Of a DNA stretch of 62,150 nucleotides, positions 1 through 47,743 are shown one piece after another. The notes under the pieces were generated by a model that saw only the letters and a list, made by a program, of their open reading frames with translations, had not been told where the DNA came from and made no database searches. The stretch is from Lachnospiraceae bacterium (GTDB taxonomy: Bacteria > Bacillota > Clostridia > Lachnospirales > Lachnospiraceae), in assembly GCA_017465475.1 (NCBI GenBank), contig JAFTWC010000002.1, forward strand, positions 1 through 62,150, written 5' to 3'. A program made the position numbers and the translations under genes. Each line of letters begins with the position of its first letter. The first letter of the stretch is position 1.

Positions 1-275
1 ATTCCGTCGCTCAGTCGTGGGCGCGTTCGCATTTCGCAAACTTTTCCGTGCAGGCGGTGCTCCGCACCAACCCACACTTCGCGATTCCGTCGCTCAGTCG
101 TGGGCGCGTTCGCATTTCGCAAACTTTTCCGTGCAGGCGGTGCTCCGCACCAACCCACACTTCGCGACTCCGTCGCTCAGTCGTGGGCGCGTTCGCATGA
201 CTACGCAACTGCTTGTGAGCAAGCTCACGCAGTTTGCTCGTATGCTCACTTTGCCTGCACGGACATTGTCTGCAC
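1..275 (-). repeat. Modular GC-rich structured repeat, copy A (runs off window edge)
   Basis: An 83-base unit occurs twice exactly (1-83 and 84-166), followed by a third partial unit from 167. Read on the minus strand the array starts with CGTGCAGGC near 265 and is clearly the same family as the plus-strand repeat at 23557-23921. Shared blocks include ATGCGAACGCGCCCACGAC and the terminal GCCTGCACG. Each unit contains short hairpins (GCGAC/GTCGC, GGTGC/GCACC), and the first module has a longer one (CTGCGTGAGC/GCTCACAAGCAG). Open frames cross the array in several phases, but the hairpins, not a protein, explain the conservation. The left end lies outside the window, so copy number is unknown. 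Confidence 0.85.
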
Positions 276-43817: not shown

Positions 43818-45188
43818 TTACATATCCGCTTCTGCAGCTTTTATCATAATGGCACATTCCATACGCTTGCGGAACAGTTTACATCCGTACTCATACACAC
43901 CGGTAATGTCTCCCGTTGCATGGTAAGCATTGGCTGCACAACCGCCGGAACAATAAAGTTTTGCCCAACAATCCTTACATTCCGGTCTGGAATAAGCATT
44001 ACATCCACGGAATTTTTCCTGCATGGTGGTATTCGTCACACCGTCCCACACATTTCCCATCAGGTATGCTTCATCTCCTACAAACTGGTGACACGGGTAC
44101 AAATCGCCCCAAGGGGTTACTGCCAAGTACTCCGTACCCGAACCACAGCCGGAAATACGCTTGTAAATACACGGTCCATGGGATAAATCAATCATATAAT
44201 GATAGAAGGTAAAACCTCTGCCTTCTTTTTTACGCTTAATCATTTCTTTTGCTAAAAGCTCATACTGATCAAACAGCTTCGGCAAATCTTCCTCGGTCAA
44301 CGCATACGGATCTGTGGGTGCACACACCACCGGTTCCATACTAAGCTCCGTAAATCCCAGGTCTGCCATATGGAATAAGTCATTAGTGAAGTCTACGTTG
44401 TTGTGGGTAAAGGTGCCACGCATGTAGTAGTCCTTACCGCCACGGCTTTCCACAAACTTCTGGAACTTCGGTACAATGGTATCGTAGCTTCCTTTTCCTT
44501 CATAATTCTTACGCAAACGGTCGTGGACCTCTTTTCTTCCGTCAAGACTCAGTACCACATTGTGCATTTCCTTGTTGGCAAACTCAATGACATCATCATC
44601 CACCAGTACACCGTTGGTCGTCAGGGTAAAACGGAACTTCTTATTATGAATCGGTTCCTGAGTTCTTGCATATGCCACTAATTCTTTTACCACATCCCAG
44701 TTCATTAACGGCTCACCACCGAAGAAATCCACTTCCAGATTGGTTCTGGTACCGGAATGGGCAATAAGGAAATCCAAGGCCTGCTTTCCCACCTCAAAAG
44801 ACATCAAAGCACGTTCTCCCTGATACTTTCCCTGTGCAGCAAAACAATAATTACAATTCAGGTTACAGGTATGTGCCACATGAAGACAAAGTGCCTTGAT
44901 TACATTGCTTCTGTTTTTCAACACACCTGCTTTGTCACCGTAAATATCCTTTGCAAACAGCTGACCGGATGCAATCAAAGCTTCCACATCACGAATGCAA
45001 GCACTCACTTCCTCTGCCGTAAGTCCCTGTTCTTTATACTTTTCCGTCATCTGTGCCACAATCTGCTCTGCCGGTGTGGTCTCATACAAAGAAATAATAT
45101 CATATGCCACCTCATCCACCACATGGATTGCTCCGCTGAACACATCGATTACTATGTTGTATCCGTTCATTTTGTACTGATGTATCAT
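43818..45188 (-). CDS. scfB: SCIFF maturase, radical SAM/SPASM thioether-forming enzyme
   Basis: 456 residues, AAAGGAG upstream. An N-terminal RiPP-recognition (PqqD-like) domain (about 1-90) binds the precursor leader. The radical SAM cluster motif is C108-NLN-C112-NY-C115, followed by FFGGEPLMNW. The C-terminal SPASM domain has many Cys residues (CGSG, YPCHQF, CNAYSRPECKDCWAKLYCSGGC) for two auxiliary 4Fe-4S clusters. Enzymes of this group install Cys thioether cross-links in the six-Cys peptide encoded just upstream. Length and motifs are normal, so the odd part is the precursor, not the enzyme. Confidence 0.96.
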   Translation of the reverse strand: MIHQYKMNGYNIVIDVFSGAIHVVDEVAYDIISLYETTPAEQIVAQMTEKYKEQGLTAEEVSACIRDVEALIASGQLFAKDIYGDKAGVLKNRSNVIKALCLHVAHTCNLNCNYCFAAQGKYQGERALMSFEVGKQALDFLIAHSGTRTNLEVDFFGGEPLMNWDVVKELVAYARTQEPIHNKKFRFTLTTNGVLVDDDVIEFANKEMHNVVLSLDGRKEVHDRLRKNYEGKGSYDTIVPKFQKFVESRGGKDYYMRGTFTHNNVDFTNDLFHMADLGFTELSMEPVVCAPTDPYALTEEDLPKLFDQYELLAKEMIKRKKEGRGFTFYHYMIDLSHGPCIYKRISGCGSGTEYLAVTPWGDLYPCHQFVGDEAYLMGNVWDGVTNTTMQEKFRGCNAYSRPECKDCWAKLYCSGGCAANAYHATGDITGVYEYGCKLFRKRMECAIMIKAAEADM

Positions 45189-45230: not shown

Positions 45231-45267
45231 AAAAAGACCACCGGATTCCTTTACCGAAATCCGGCGG
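45231..45267 (-). terminator. Attenuator-type terminator between scfA and scfB
   Basis: Minus strand CCGCCGGATT pairs with AATCCGGTGG around a 10-base loop, then TCTTTTTC. Lying between precursor and maturase genes, it would let most transcripts stop after scfA, so peptide is made in excess over enzyme. Confidence 0.7.
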
Positions 45268-45291
45268 TACATACCTTTTTATTTAGCTTAA

Positions 45292-45567
45292 TTAGCGCTC
45301 ACACGGCTGATTTGCAACACCGCAAGAAGTCTTACATGCAGACTGACAAGAAGTCTGGCACTCACCGCATCCGCCGTCGGTAAGGCTAGCGGAAAGGCTG
45401 CGGGTATTTAAGGTCTTGATACGGCTGTTGGTGTTCTCACACGGCTGATTTGCAACGCCGCAGGAAGTCTTACATGCAGACTGACAAGAAGTCTGGCACT
45501 CGCCGCATCCGCCATCGGTAAGGCTGATAGATAAATCTCTGGTATTCAGTGTATTAATTCTGCTCAT
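45292..45567 (-). CDS. scfA: Double SCIFF precursor: two tandem six-cysteine units
   Basis: 91 residues from the ATG at 45567 (AAAGGAG upstream; a frame to 45600 has no ribosome site). Residues 1-44 form a full SCIFF unit with Cys at 21, 24, 28, 32, 36 and 43. Residues 47-91 repeat it with Cys at 67, 70, 74, 78, 82 and 89, giving 12 Cys. Each unit has leader-like (RI-TLNTR-LS-SL) and core (GGCGECQTSCQSACKTSC) parts; a short NTNS linker joins them. Usual SCIFF peptides are about 45-50 residues with one unit. In both units the residue after the fifth Cys is Gly (37, 83), where the usual peptide, as I remember, has Thr. The maturase gene follows. Confidence 0.93.
   Translation of the reverse strand: MSRINTLNTRDLSISLTDGGCGECQTSCQSACKTSCGVANQPCENTNSRIKTLNTRSLSASLTDGGCGECQTSCQSACKTSCGVANQPCER
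45299..45524 (-). repeat. 138-base tandem duplication inside scfA
   Basis: The stretch from 45299 to about 45386 recurs from 45437 to about 45524, offset 138 bases (46 codons). The two differ at four positions in about 88 bases, all third-codon and synonymous (Gly, Ser, Gly, Asp). The N-terminal, leader-like parts have diverged more (Asn/Lys, Asp/Ser, Ile/Ala). Confidence 0.9.
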
Positions 45568-45607: not shown

Positions 45608-45637
45608 ATTATAGTCCAAAGCCACAGAATTTGTCAA
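45608..45637 (-). promoter_or_regulatory. Strong promoter of scfA
   Basis: Minus strand: perfect TTGACA (45632-45637), 18-base spacer, perfect TATAAT (45608-45613). The -35 box overlaps the stop codon of the decarboxylase gene. Confidence 0.8.
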
Positions 45638-47106
45638 CCGCTATGTTTACAGAAGTTGCAAATATCATTGACTCCTTCGTTCCGACGCTGTCCTTCTTCT
45701 GCCACCACCCGAAGACATAACCTGCCCTTGCAGCTTCCGCTTCTTTTGTGCAGCTCCACCCCCCGGTTCTGTTTTTCAGTCAACCAGGTCACCATGGGTT
45801 CCGTCACTTCTTCCCCTGCTACTACCACCGGGATTCCCGGCGGATAGGCCCAAAGATGTTCTGCCGCAATGCATCCCACAGCTTCGTTCAGACCACGCTC
45901 TTCACTTTCTGCCTGCATGGCTTCTTTGATATTCAAACGTATCGGTGCCAATCCGGGACACATTACATCCCTTATTCTTCCTTCTTTGCATTCCCCATCG
46001 ATTTTTTCTAAGGCATGCGCCAGACAAAGCAGGGATTCTTCCGTATCTCCCATTCCGGTCATGGCAATCACATATTGTTCCGCTGCCATTTCAAGCTCAA
46101 TACGATACTCCGTTCTTAATCGTTCCATAAGCTCCGGCCCTGTCAGATTTGTTTCTGCGGTAGATATCACAAGCTTACCGGGATCCTTCTCTCCGAACCC
46201 TGTAAACACCTTTAACCGTCGCAACGATTCCGTTTTCTTATAAAAAACGTCCAGCGCTTTTTCCCAGACAGCAAAGCACTCCTCTCCCCGTTCTTCCAAC
46301 AATCCCACACACCCTTCAATGGATGCCGACAGCAAATAAGAAGGGCTGCTTGTTTGAAACAGATTCACCGCTGCCTGCAATGCCTCTCCGGATACCAGCG
46401 TTCCCCTTCTGTGGAGCATGGCCGTTTGGGTCAGACAGGGCAATGTTTTATGCAAACTCTGCACTACAATATCTGCGCCGCATTCCACTGCGCCTTTTGA
46501 AAATCCTCCAAATCCAAGATGAGCTCCGTGAGCCGAATCTACCAAAACCGGTACACCATACTTGTGTGCCGTCCTGCAAATCTCCTCTATATCACTAATG
46601 ATTCCTTCATACGTAGGACTGGTTATCACCACAAGCTTCGCATCCGGCTCCTTTTGTAATACATCTTCCACCATTTCCTTTGTAATGCTTCCGAAAATCC
46701 CTGTGGCACTATCCTGTTCCGGCATAAGATACCGTACCGTTGCATTGATAAGCTCCAATCCGTTATACACAGACTTATGACAATTTCTCGCCACGATAAC
46801 AGTTCCGCCGTAAGGCACCGTAGCGTAAATTCCGGCTAAAATACCACAGGTACTTCCGTTCACCAAAGGATACGCGTCCTCACTTTTCCAAAGCTTTGCC
46901 GCCCGTCGTTTTAAGTCAAGAAAAACACCTTCCGGTTCTGCCAGATTATCAAACCCCACAATTTCCGTAATATCACAATCCGCACACAACGCAGCAAGAT
47001 ACCCGTCTGTTCCGGAAAGAGCAAGATTTCTTTTGTGCCCCGGCATATGCATGGGAATCATGGTTTTATTGTATTCTCTCAGCTTTTGAAACAACGGCTG
47101 CTCCAT
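45634..47106 (-). CDS. Orn/Lys/Arg decarboxylase family PLP enzyme
   Basis: 490 residues from the ATG at 47106, which gives the family N-terminus (PLFQKLREYNKTMIPMHMPGHKRN). The PLP site is SLHKTL with the Schiff-base Lys; VLVDSAHGAHLGF and NGSTCGILAG are also visible. It decarboxylates a basic amino acid to a polyamine precursor or other diamine; the YaaO/SpeA-like short form lacks the wing domain of E. coli enzymes. Its start lies 41 bases inside the end of sigK and has only a weak ribosome site, suggesting translational coupling. The substrate is not decidable here. Confidence 0.9.
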   Translation of the reverse strand: MEQPLFQKLREYNKTMIPMHMPGHKRNLALSGTDGYLAALCADCDITEIVGFDNLAEPEGVFLDLKRRAAKLWKSEDAYPLVNGSTCGILAGIYATVPYGGTVIVARNCHKSVYNGLELINATVRYLMPEQDSATGIFGSITKEMVEDVLQKEPDAKLVVITSPTYEGIISDIEEICRTAHKYGVPVLVDSAHGAHLGFGGFSKGAVECGADIVVQSLHKTLPCLTQTAMLHRRGTLVSGEALQAAVNLFQTSSPSYLLSASIEGCVGLLEERGEECFAVWEKALDVFYKKTESLRRLKVFTGFGEKDPGKLVISTAETNLTGPELMERLRTEYRIELEMAAEQYVIAMTGMGDTEESLLCLAHALEKIDGECKEGRIRDVMCPGLAPIRLNIKEAMQAESEERGLNEAVGCIAAEHLWAYPPGIPVVVAGEEVTEPMVTWLTEKQNRGVELHKRSGSCKGRLCLRVVAEEGQRRNEGVNDICNFCKHSG

Positions 47107-47743
47107 CGTATCCGTCCATTCCTTTCTCATACTCTTTTCGTAGTTTTCCCAATGCCTTTTTTTCAATTCTGGAAACATAGCTTCTGCTAATGTTCAGTTT
47201 ATCGGCAATTTCCCGCTGGGTAAGTTCCTTTTTTCCGTCCAATCCATACCGAAGGCTAATAATCTCCCGTTCCCGTTCCTCAAGCTGCGTTAAAAGAAAG
47301 CCGGGCAATACTGCCAATTTTTCTCTCTGCTCATACCGTTCCGTATAGTCTTCTTCCTCAGCTACAATGATTTCCAAAAGGCTGATGGCATTTCCCTCTT
47401 TATCCGTCCCGATGGGGTCGTACAAATATACTTCCTTTGCCGTCTTTTTCCCGGCCCTAAAAAACATAAGCAACTCATTTTCGATACAACGAGCTGCGTA
47501 CGTTCCCAGCCGAATCCCCTTGGAACCGTCAAAGGAATCCACAGCTTTAATAAGCCCCACTGTCCCGATGGAAAGCAAATCTTCATTGTCCCGCTCCGGT
47601 TGAGAATACTTCTTCACAATGTGTGCTACCAGACGAAGATTGTGCTCAATCAGCAAATCTCTTGCCTGTCTGTCTCCTTCGCGAAACCGTTTTACCAAAG
47701 ACTCTTCTTCTTTTGCATCAAGCGGTTTTGGAAAAGATAACAC
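47066..47743 (-). CDS. sigK: RNA polymerase sporulation sigma factor SigK-like
   Basis: 225 residues starting with GTG at 47743, GGAGG six bases upstream. Region 2 (LLIEHNLRLVAHIVKKYS, GTVGLIKAVDSFDG, TYAARCIENELLMFFR), the SigK-like linker KEVYLYDPIGTDKEGNAISL and region 4 with an HTH (TQREIADKLNISRSYVSRIEK) are all present. It aligns with mature SigK from the first residues, so the pro-sequence that is cleaved in Bacillus is missing. The gene is uninterrupted (no skin element). It controls late mother-cell genes in spore formers. Confidence 0.88.
   Translation of the reverse strand: MLSFPKPLDAKEEESLVKRFREGDRQARDLLIEHNLRLVAHIVKKYSQPERDNEDLLSIGTVGLIKAVDSFDGSKGIRLGTYAARCIENELLMFFRAGKKTAKEVYLYDPIGTDKEGNAISLLEIIVAEEEDYTERYEQREKLAVLPGFLLTQLEEREREIISLRYGLDGKKELTQREIADKLNISRSYVSRIEKKALGKLRKEYEKGMDGYDGAAVVSKAERIQ

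Follow-up and report, generated by a model that had tools for sequence, protein, structure and literature searches.

In ranthipeptides, radical SAM enzymes make non-alpha thioethers, and in sactipeptides the thioethers are alpha-linked. In multi-core RiPP precursors, several cores are obtained from one precursor. The described systems closest to the locus studied here are the SCIFF peptides, which carry six Cys in about 45 residues and usually occur as one unit per precursor. As the SCIFF passage of PMC5300114 has it, a maturase is expected with every SCIFF precursor. In the parts of PMC8326336 and PMC8172795 that deal with the cross-link, the thioether is Cys32-Thr37 in vitro (Tte1186a, CteA) and Cys32-Thr34, at C-gamma, on co-expression in E. 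coli; that part of the review PMC8326336 calls the active form and the position of the cross-link open.

We analysed a window of 62,150 nucleotides, which covers positions 1 to 62,150 of contig JAFTWC010000002.1 from a Lachnospiraceae bacterium (assembly GCA_017465475.1). It contains a SCIFF precursor gene with two complete six-Cys units, composed as follows.

45292..45567, minus strand: tandem SCIFF precursor gene, 91 aa with 12 Cys (ORF translation and family profiles)
45436..45567, minus strand: unit 1 (residues 1-44, M1-E44), leader MSRINTLNTRDLSISLTD, then GGCGEC...NQPCE, with Cys32, Thr34 and Gly37
45424..45435, minus strand: linker NTNS (residues 45-48), codons AAC ACC AAC AGC, without a start codon
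45298..45423, minus strand: unit 2 (residues 49-90, R49-E90), leader RIKTLNTRSLSASLTD, then the same GGCGEC...NQPCE, with Cys78, Thr80 and Gly83

The frame runs from the ATG at 45567 to the end of the stop codon at 45292. Its Cys residues lie at positions 21, 24, 28, 32, 36 and 43 and at 67, 70, 74, 78, 82 and 89, and Arg91 follows unit 2 as the last residue. An AAAGGAG motif just 5' of the ATG supports the start at 45567 against a 102-aa ORF from 45600, which is a mechanical upstream extension. The leaders RINTLNTRDLSISLTD (unit 1) and RIKTLNTRSLSASLTD (unit 2) are each followed by an identical GGCGECQTSCQSACKTSCGVANQPCE; its last 25 residues (GCGEC...NQPCE), here called the core, are the same in both units. 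At the DNA level, 20 of 123 nt are different between the units over 41 aligned residues, and the gene contains a 90-nt repeat of 96% identity with a spacing of 138.

The first-pass annotation had proposed a tandem SCIFF precursor with two complete six-Cys units joined by an NTNS linker. Coordinates and frame agree with it exactly, and both family profiles matched the precursor in two stretches, TIGR03973 with 151.3 bits (cut-off 50) and PF13165 with 148 bits (cut-off 27). Each unit alone scored 79.5-81 bits with TIGR03973, above the cut-off of 50, and six Cys in about 45 residues are found twice. In having two units the precursor departs from the usual form, which is not part of the TIGR03973 model. 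Given the profile scores and the conservation in other genomes described below, the double unit is not due to chance. The linker occupies residues 45-48 as had been described, and Arg49 seems better read as the opening of the second leader than as linker. A search of solved structures with the peptide gave no match up to an E-value of 10.

Four further features surround the precursor gene.

43818..45188, minus strand: ScfB, radical SAM/SPASM SCIFF maturase of the Gly37-type branch, 456 aa (TIGR03974, tree and alignment)
45237..45268, minus strand: terminator-like hairpin between precursor and ScfB, 13 pairs, then CTTTTTCTGT
45608..45637, minus strand: sigma-70-like promoter upstream of the precursor, TTGACA-18-TATAAT, 12 of 12 matches
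45634..47178, minus strand: Orn/Lys/Arg-decarboxylase-like PLP protein (OKR_DC_1, Pfam), 514 aa, SxHK at residues 241-244

ScfB starts 103 nt past the precursor stop, which places a maturase next to the precursor as in other SCIFF loci. The ordinary length claimed for it was confirmed: ScfB scored 783.6 bits with TIGR03974 (cut-off 425), and residues 1-453 aligned to 6-452 of the 453-residue chain 5wgg with 594 bits. By eye, its CX3CX2C and SPASM cysteines line up with those of 5wgg. We take 5wgg and 5why to be CteB, and the aligned cysteines presumably have the roles that we assume for them in that enzyme. An N-terminal PqqD/RRE-like match of ScfB reached 20.4 bits, below the Pfam cut-off of 23.4.

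The promoter was the one promoter-like site found (shuffles gave a mean of 1.2 at a threshold of 9 of 12), and the region held two terminator-like hairpins (shuffles: mean 0.7). The hairpin between precursor and ScfB is a possible attenuator; by a crude test, a hairpin ahead of a T run was present in 15 of the 35 tandem loci. Promoter and hairpin, both consensus matches only, would fit production of more precursor than enzyme. At the contig start, window positions 1-198 consist of an 83-bp tandem repeat in 2.4 copies, possibly an assembly edge or a repeat array.

We found two units in one frame in nine of the ten genomes of the genus, the window's own included. In the tenth genome, the ScfB match opens at position 209 of the model on the third base of a contig, so that the precursor lies off the contig. 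A pattern scan of 84,980 species genomes yielded 34 tandem records; it ignored residue 37, required an ATGA start, certain fixed letters in the core and units spaced about 119-149 nt apart, and would overlook tandems of another shape. Two units in one open frame and an ScfB, whole or partial, on the same strand were present in all 34 records. Seven of these (L060, L063, L066, L071, L079, L085 and L086) belong to the genus; their peptides are identical to the precursors of the genus genomes, and the records probably represent those genomes. L081 has the same precursor and maturase sequence as G408, a genome of the class sample.

SCIFF is very widespread in Clostridia, with matches in 124 of 148 genomes of the class sample and 365 of 397 of the family sample. 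Two of the 124 have the tandem, the window's own genome and G408. Five family-sample genomes gave at least two SCIFF matches: G000 and G008, both of the genus, and G023, G072 and G137, in which the copies lie on separate contigs. The two matches of G072 are at contig ends and have the same sequence, as in a split gene or a hidden tandem. Taken together, the tandem is a trait of the genus that recurs elsewhere, and related bacteria of gut and rumen have retained it. Among the single SCIFFs, three loci (L049, L051 and L054) lie on three contigs of G137, a draft genome with 6% contamination, and four of the family (L223, L227, L232 and L237) have CGKCQASC for CGECQTSC in the core.

It had also been claimed that both units are in use, on the ground that their cores are identical. 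In the nine genus genomes none of the 25 core amino-acid columns varied in either unit, and 17 of 25 codon columns varied in unit 1 and 18 of 25 in unit 2. Because the core codons vary and the residues never do, we conclude that both units are used and under purifying selection. The claim of use stands on these silent changes with zero replacement changes between genomes; the original ground for it does not, since homogenisation is partly the cause of the likeness of the cores, which alone is no proof of use.

Homogenisation was assessed by comparing the units within and between genes, with pairing statistics that ignore kinship and the codon and base composition common to both units of one genome. 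In eight genus precursors the cores differed at 4.75 nt within a gene versus 7.77 between genomes, and 1 of 20,000 shuffled pairings was as low. The first 27 nt of the leader differed at 11.00 nt within a gene versus 11.09 between genomes, i.e. were not homogenised, and differed between genus genomes by 2.36 and 2.68 when the same unit was compared. By these distances the two leaders are distinct types, each conserved across the genus. The 18 nt preceding the core showed no within-gene likeness either (5.38 versus 5.59). This mosaic in the genus points to gene conversion limited to the core. In the 27 non-genus tandems the core differences were 4.00 within a gene versus 13.55 (0 of 20,000 shuffles as low), and those in the 18 nt preceding the core 1.85 versus 8.96; there, repeated fresh duplication or a base composition common to both units could mimic homogenisation or add to it.

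The second leader is kept in the tandems, with Thr at motif position 6 in 33 of 35, Arg or Lys at position 7 in all 35 and Leu at position 9 in 34; Ile at position 1 and Thr or Ser at position 3 were demanded by the search motif and are no evidence of retention. The retention is suggestive of use of the second leader but is no proof, and one leader could serve both cores.

In unit 1 of the window, Cys32 is the fourth Cys, followed two positions later by Thr34, and Gly stands at residue 37. Gly37 occurs in both units of all 34 tandem records, and the window has Gly37 and Gly83 where Thr37 would be the acceptor described in vitro, a residue that the TIGR03973 model does not use as a definition. 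Thr34 was present in all 173 readable single SCIFFs (181 loci given). Residue 37 was Thr in 132 of these and Gly in 41, a pool that includes loci picked for high or low score and gives no prevalence. In the class sample, 95 of 122 single SCIFFs had Thr37 and 27 had Gly37; the 122 comprise 119 distinct ones (92 Thr, 27 Gly) and the odd loci L200, L208 and L209, all with Thr. We accordingly rejected the idea that Gly37 is exclusive to tandems, and since single SCIFFs with Gly37 also exist, the tandem state is nested within the Gly37 type. The supposition that the other members of the window's family all have Thr37 was wrong as well: the 30 low-scoring members retrieved comprised 14 with Gly37, 15 with Thr37 and one cut off before residue 37.

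Glycine has no gamma carbon, so that a gamma-thioether in the Gly37 branch must go elsewhere than residue 37. With Gly at residue 37/83 and an invariant Thr34, the latter would be the simplest and likelier acceptor in this branch. The invariance of Thr34 might instead serve recognition rather than cross-linking. The argument is limited to the Gly37 branch, as SCIFFs of the Thr37 type have both Thr residues. Precursors that carry Gly37 by nature provide a test of the acceptor, since any cross-link in them must be something other than a gamma-thioether at residue 37.

The maturases of Gly37 precursors formed one clade, with 59 of 141 rows and 98% support in a FastTree tree (79 Thr37 rows; ScfB ORFs below 380 aa or 250 bits left out) and with 67 of 80 rows and 100/100 support in an IQ-TREE tree (13 Thr37 rows; L067, L130, L204, L143, the short ScfB of L211, and L224, which had no ScfB match, left out). 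Residue 37 thus follows the maturase lineage. A further tree left out most Thr37 rows and ten others, of which L110, L113, L130, L190, L201, L207 and L208 were long-branched and L067, L200 and L209 had an odd letter make-up. All tandem rows lay inside the Gly37 clade, and the tandem state changed three times on the FastTree tree, four times on the further tree and three times on the IQ-TREE tree. The AU test rejected a single clade of tandems (p 1.1e-6; 31 tandem rows versus 49); the history is one of several gains, or of a gain and losses. L065 and L076, which lie deep within a group of single-unit ScfB rows (100/98), are the clearest separate case. Gly37 rows from the window's family are interspersed with those of other families (eight changes for 12 rows, IQ-TREE), which suggests horizontal movement. 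In two loci ScfB is irregular: in L067 it lies in two overlapping frames and in L070 it begins about 1 kb after the tandem precursor, and draft error, insertion or decay are possible.

Three ScfB positions distinguish the branches (71 Gly37 versus 79 Thr37 rows). Residue 107 is Thr in 90% of the Gly37 branch and Asp in 100% of the Thr37 type, residue 111 is Asn in 89% versus Arg in 70%, and residue 331 is Tyr in 100% versus Phe in 97%. Thr107 and Asn111 flank the CX3CX2C motif.

The decarboxylase-like protein of the window gave its best score among solved chains with 2x3l (189 bits). In SxHK, the Lys binds PLP; S, H and K were present in 50 of 50 decarboxylase-like proteins. We chose 10-kb stretches around 20 of the 27 class-sample Gly37 singles, 12 of the 14 family ones and 28 Thr37 singles, 27 of which served as controls (L302, with its motif unmatched, was left out). 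With a model made from the decarboxylase-like proteins, the gene was detected in 27 of 32 stretches with a Gly37 single, in 28 of 34 with a tandem and in 0 of 27 with a Thr37 single, counts that ignore the kinship of the rows; an initial search with only the window protein as query had given 26, 27 and 0. In shorter flanks, 24 of 41 Gly37 singles had it as a neighbour, against 0 of 132 Thr37 singles (8 of 181 loci unreadable), again without regard to kinship. In the window and among the loci L267-L318 the gene lies near many SCIFF genes of the Gly37 type, in both possible orders. It was upstream on the same strand in 26 tandems and seven Gly37 singles, and downstream of ScfB on the same strand in two tandems and 19 Gly37 singles; in the Gly37 single L309 it was upstream on the opposite strand. 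The decarboxylase-like ORF of L278, mechanically called, overlaps the ScfB ORF by one base.

The gene was missing from five of the 32 Gly37 singles and six of the 34 tandem stretches. In two of these tandems the sequence ahead of the precursor core is short, some 0.3 kb in L085 and 0.7 kb in L075. The other four (L057, L058, L070 and L080) have 2.4-3.8 kb there and still lack the gene, which counts against a strict need for it. One fixed housekeeping neighbourhood was not supported by the annotated loci, whose flanks are not alike: those of L278 carry AsnA and TypA, those of L271 YmdB and RNase Y. The linked proteins fell into two groups in a decarboxylase tree of 67 rows, which left out ORFs below 390 or above 600 aa and had long branches flagged. 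One, of 29 rows, contained mostly upstream genes and two of the 20 unlinked rows; the other, of 20 rows, was entirely linked (100/100). The remaining 18 unlinked rows lay outside both. The window genome has a second, unlinked copy of the gene. Between the window and its relative L066, identity was 71% in the decarboxylase-like protein and 97% in ScfB. The accompanying gene is a new lead to the function of SCIFF.

Our preferred reading, to which we assign a probability of about two in three, is an in-frame duplication of the whole precursor in which ScfB cross-links each core, likely at Cys32-Thr34 and Cys78-Thr80, and gene conversion keeps the units the same. The gene is one ORF whose linker has no start codon, cores and leaders of the two units are conserved, the cores are kept alike, and a Gly37-branch ScfB is adjacent. 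With its N-terminal PqqD/RRE-like part ScfB would bind each leader, and it would cross-link both cores alike, most likely by the C-gamma thioethers Cys32-Thr34 and Cys78-Thr80. One translation event would then give two modified units, which gene conversion would keep the same.

Tandem precursors could yield either a dimer or two separate peptides. The gene may be a dosage device, in which a protease cuts the linker and releases two ordinary single SCIFF peptides with no new chemistry. We regard this as possible, if tentatively: the unit cores are nearly identical, and the linkers, polar stretches whose length varies between 2 and 6 residues and which stand before the Arg or His that opens the second leader, resemble a cut site or an idle spacer, but the 35 linkers share no conserved cleavage motif. 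With 13 window proteins as queries and part of six loci annotated, moreover, no peptidase gene recurred outside the genus; within it, the gene for the U32 peptidase of the window is found again at loci L063 and L079. Somewhat less probable is a single two-headed product whose cross-linked cores stay joined and work as a pair, for instance in binding a target that is itself a dimer. Such a product would agree with a tandem kept across the whole genus and in several separate groups of the maturase tree, with heads kept alike, yet linker length and letters vary within the genus (NTNSR, NTGSR, NNSR, NTH and NTR). Joined heads, identical by gene conversion, are also part of a broader and more doubtful proposal, that the Gly37 branch is a separate SCIFF subtype with its own maturase lineage, a PLP decarboxylase-like enzyme in the pathway and a bond other than Cys32-Thr37, whose precursors were repeatedly doubled.

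As to the bond, the Gly37-branch maturase might make a different one, either an alpha-thioether on Gly37/Gly83 as in a sactionine or one that uses Asn40/Gln41. A Cys-Gly alpha-thioether exists in streptosactin according to the section of PMC8172795 on that peptide, and the ScfB of the branch differs beside the CX3CX2C motif (Thr107, Asn111) and at Tyr331. We consider this improbable, given that Thr34 is invariant in both branches and suffices, and that the differing residues lie on one tree stem and are perhaps unrelated to the bond. An assembly artefact or a recent neutral duplication has a negligible probability. The window genome is a draft (81 contigs, 88.8% complete), core DNA is identical in both units of two of the 35 tandems, and other single records might be artefacts. 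Against an artefact stand the nucleotide differences between the window units and the double gene in the genus genomes and scan records, and against neutral duplication the purifying selection on both cores. For the window, an artefact is ruled out by the divergence of the units and the comparison with other genomes.

Among the matches listed in the open-access literature we found no description of a tandem, double or duplicated SCIFF, and one elsewhere is possible. The listed open-literature matches likewise held no description of SCIFF with a decarboxylase; PMC12226641 contains both sets of words. A 2026 survey of rumen isolates (PMC13289728) counts TIGR03973 clusters, and its main text is without 'SCIFF' or 'tandem'. 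As far as the open literature shows, we rate the tandem precursor as a new form of the known SCIFF family.

The window precursor resembles the SCIFF precursors (TIGR03973/PF13165; CteA/thermocellin, Tte1186a) in that each unit exceeds the cut-off, the six Cys have the family spacing and ScfB follows. It differs in having two units per ORF, Gly37, which is also found in a minority of singles, and a decarboxylase-like neighbour. Its maturase aligns over nearly the full length with ScfB/CteB (TIGR03974; 5wgg, 5why; 594 bits) but belongs to a separate Gly37 branch with residues of its own by the radical SAM motif. The ranthipeptide freyrasin (PapA/PapB) likewise has several thioether cross-links made by a radical SAM enzyme; the window ScfB scored 278.9 bits with the PapB model, below that model's cut-off of 340. 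The freyrasin passages of PMC8326336 and PMC8172795 describe six Cys-Asp bridges in one precursor and mention no tandem of leader and core. Unlike multi-core RiPP precursors, the window precursor repeats the leader with each core.
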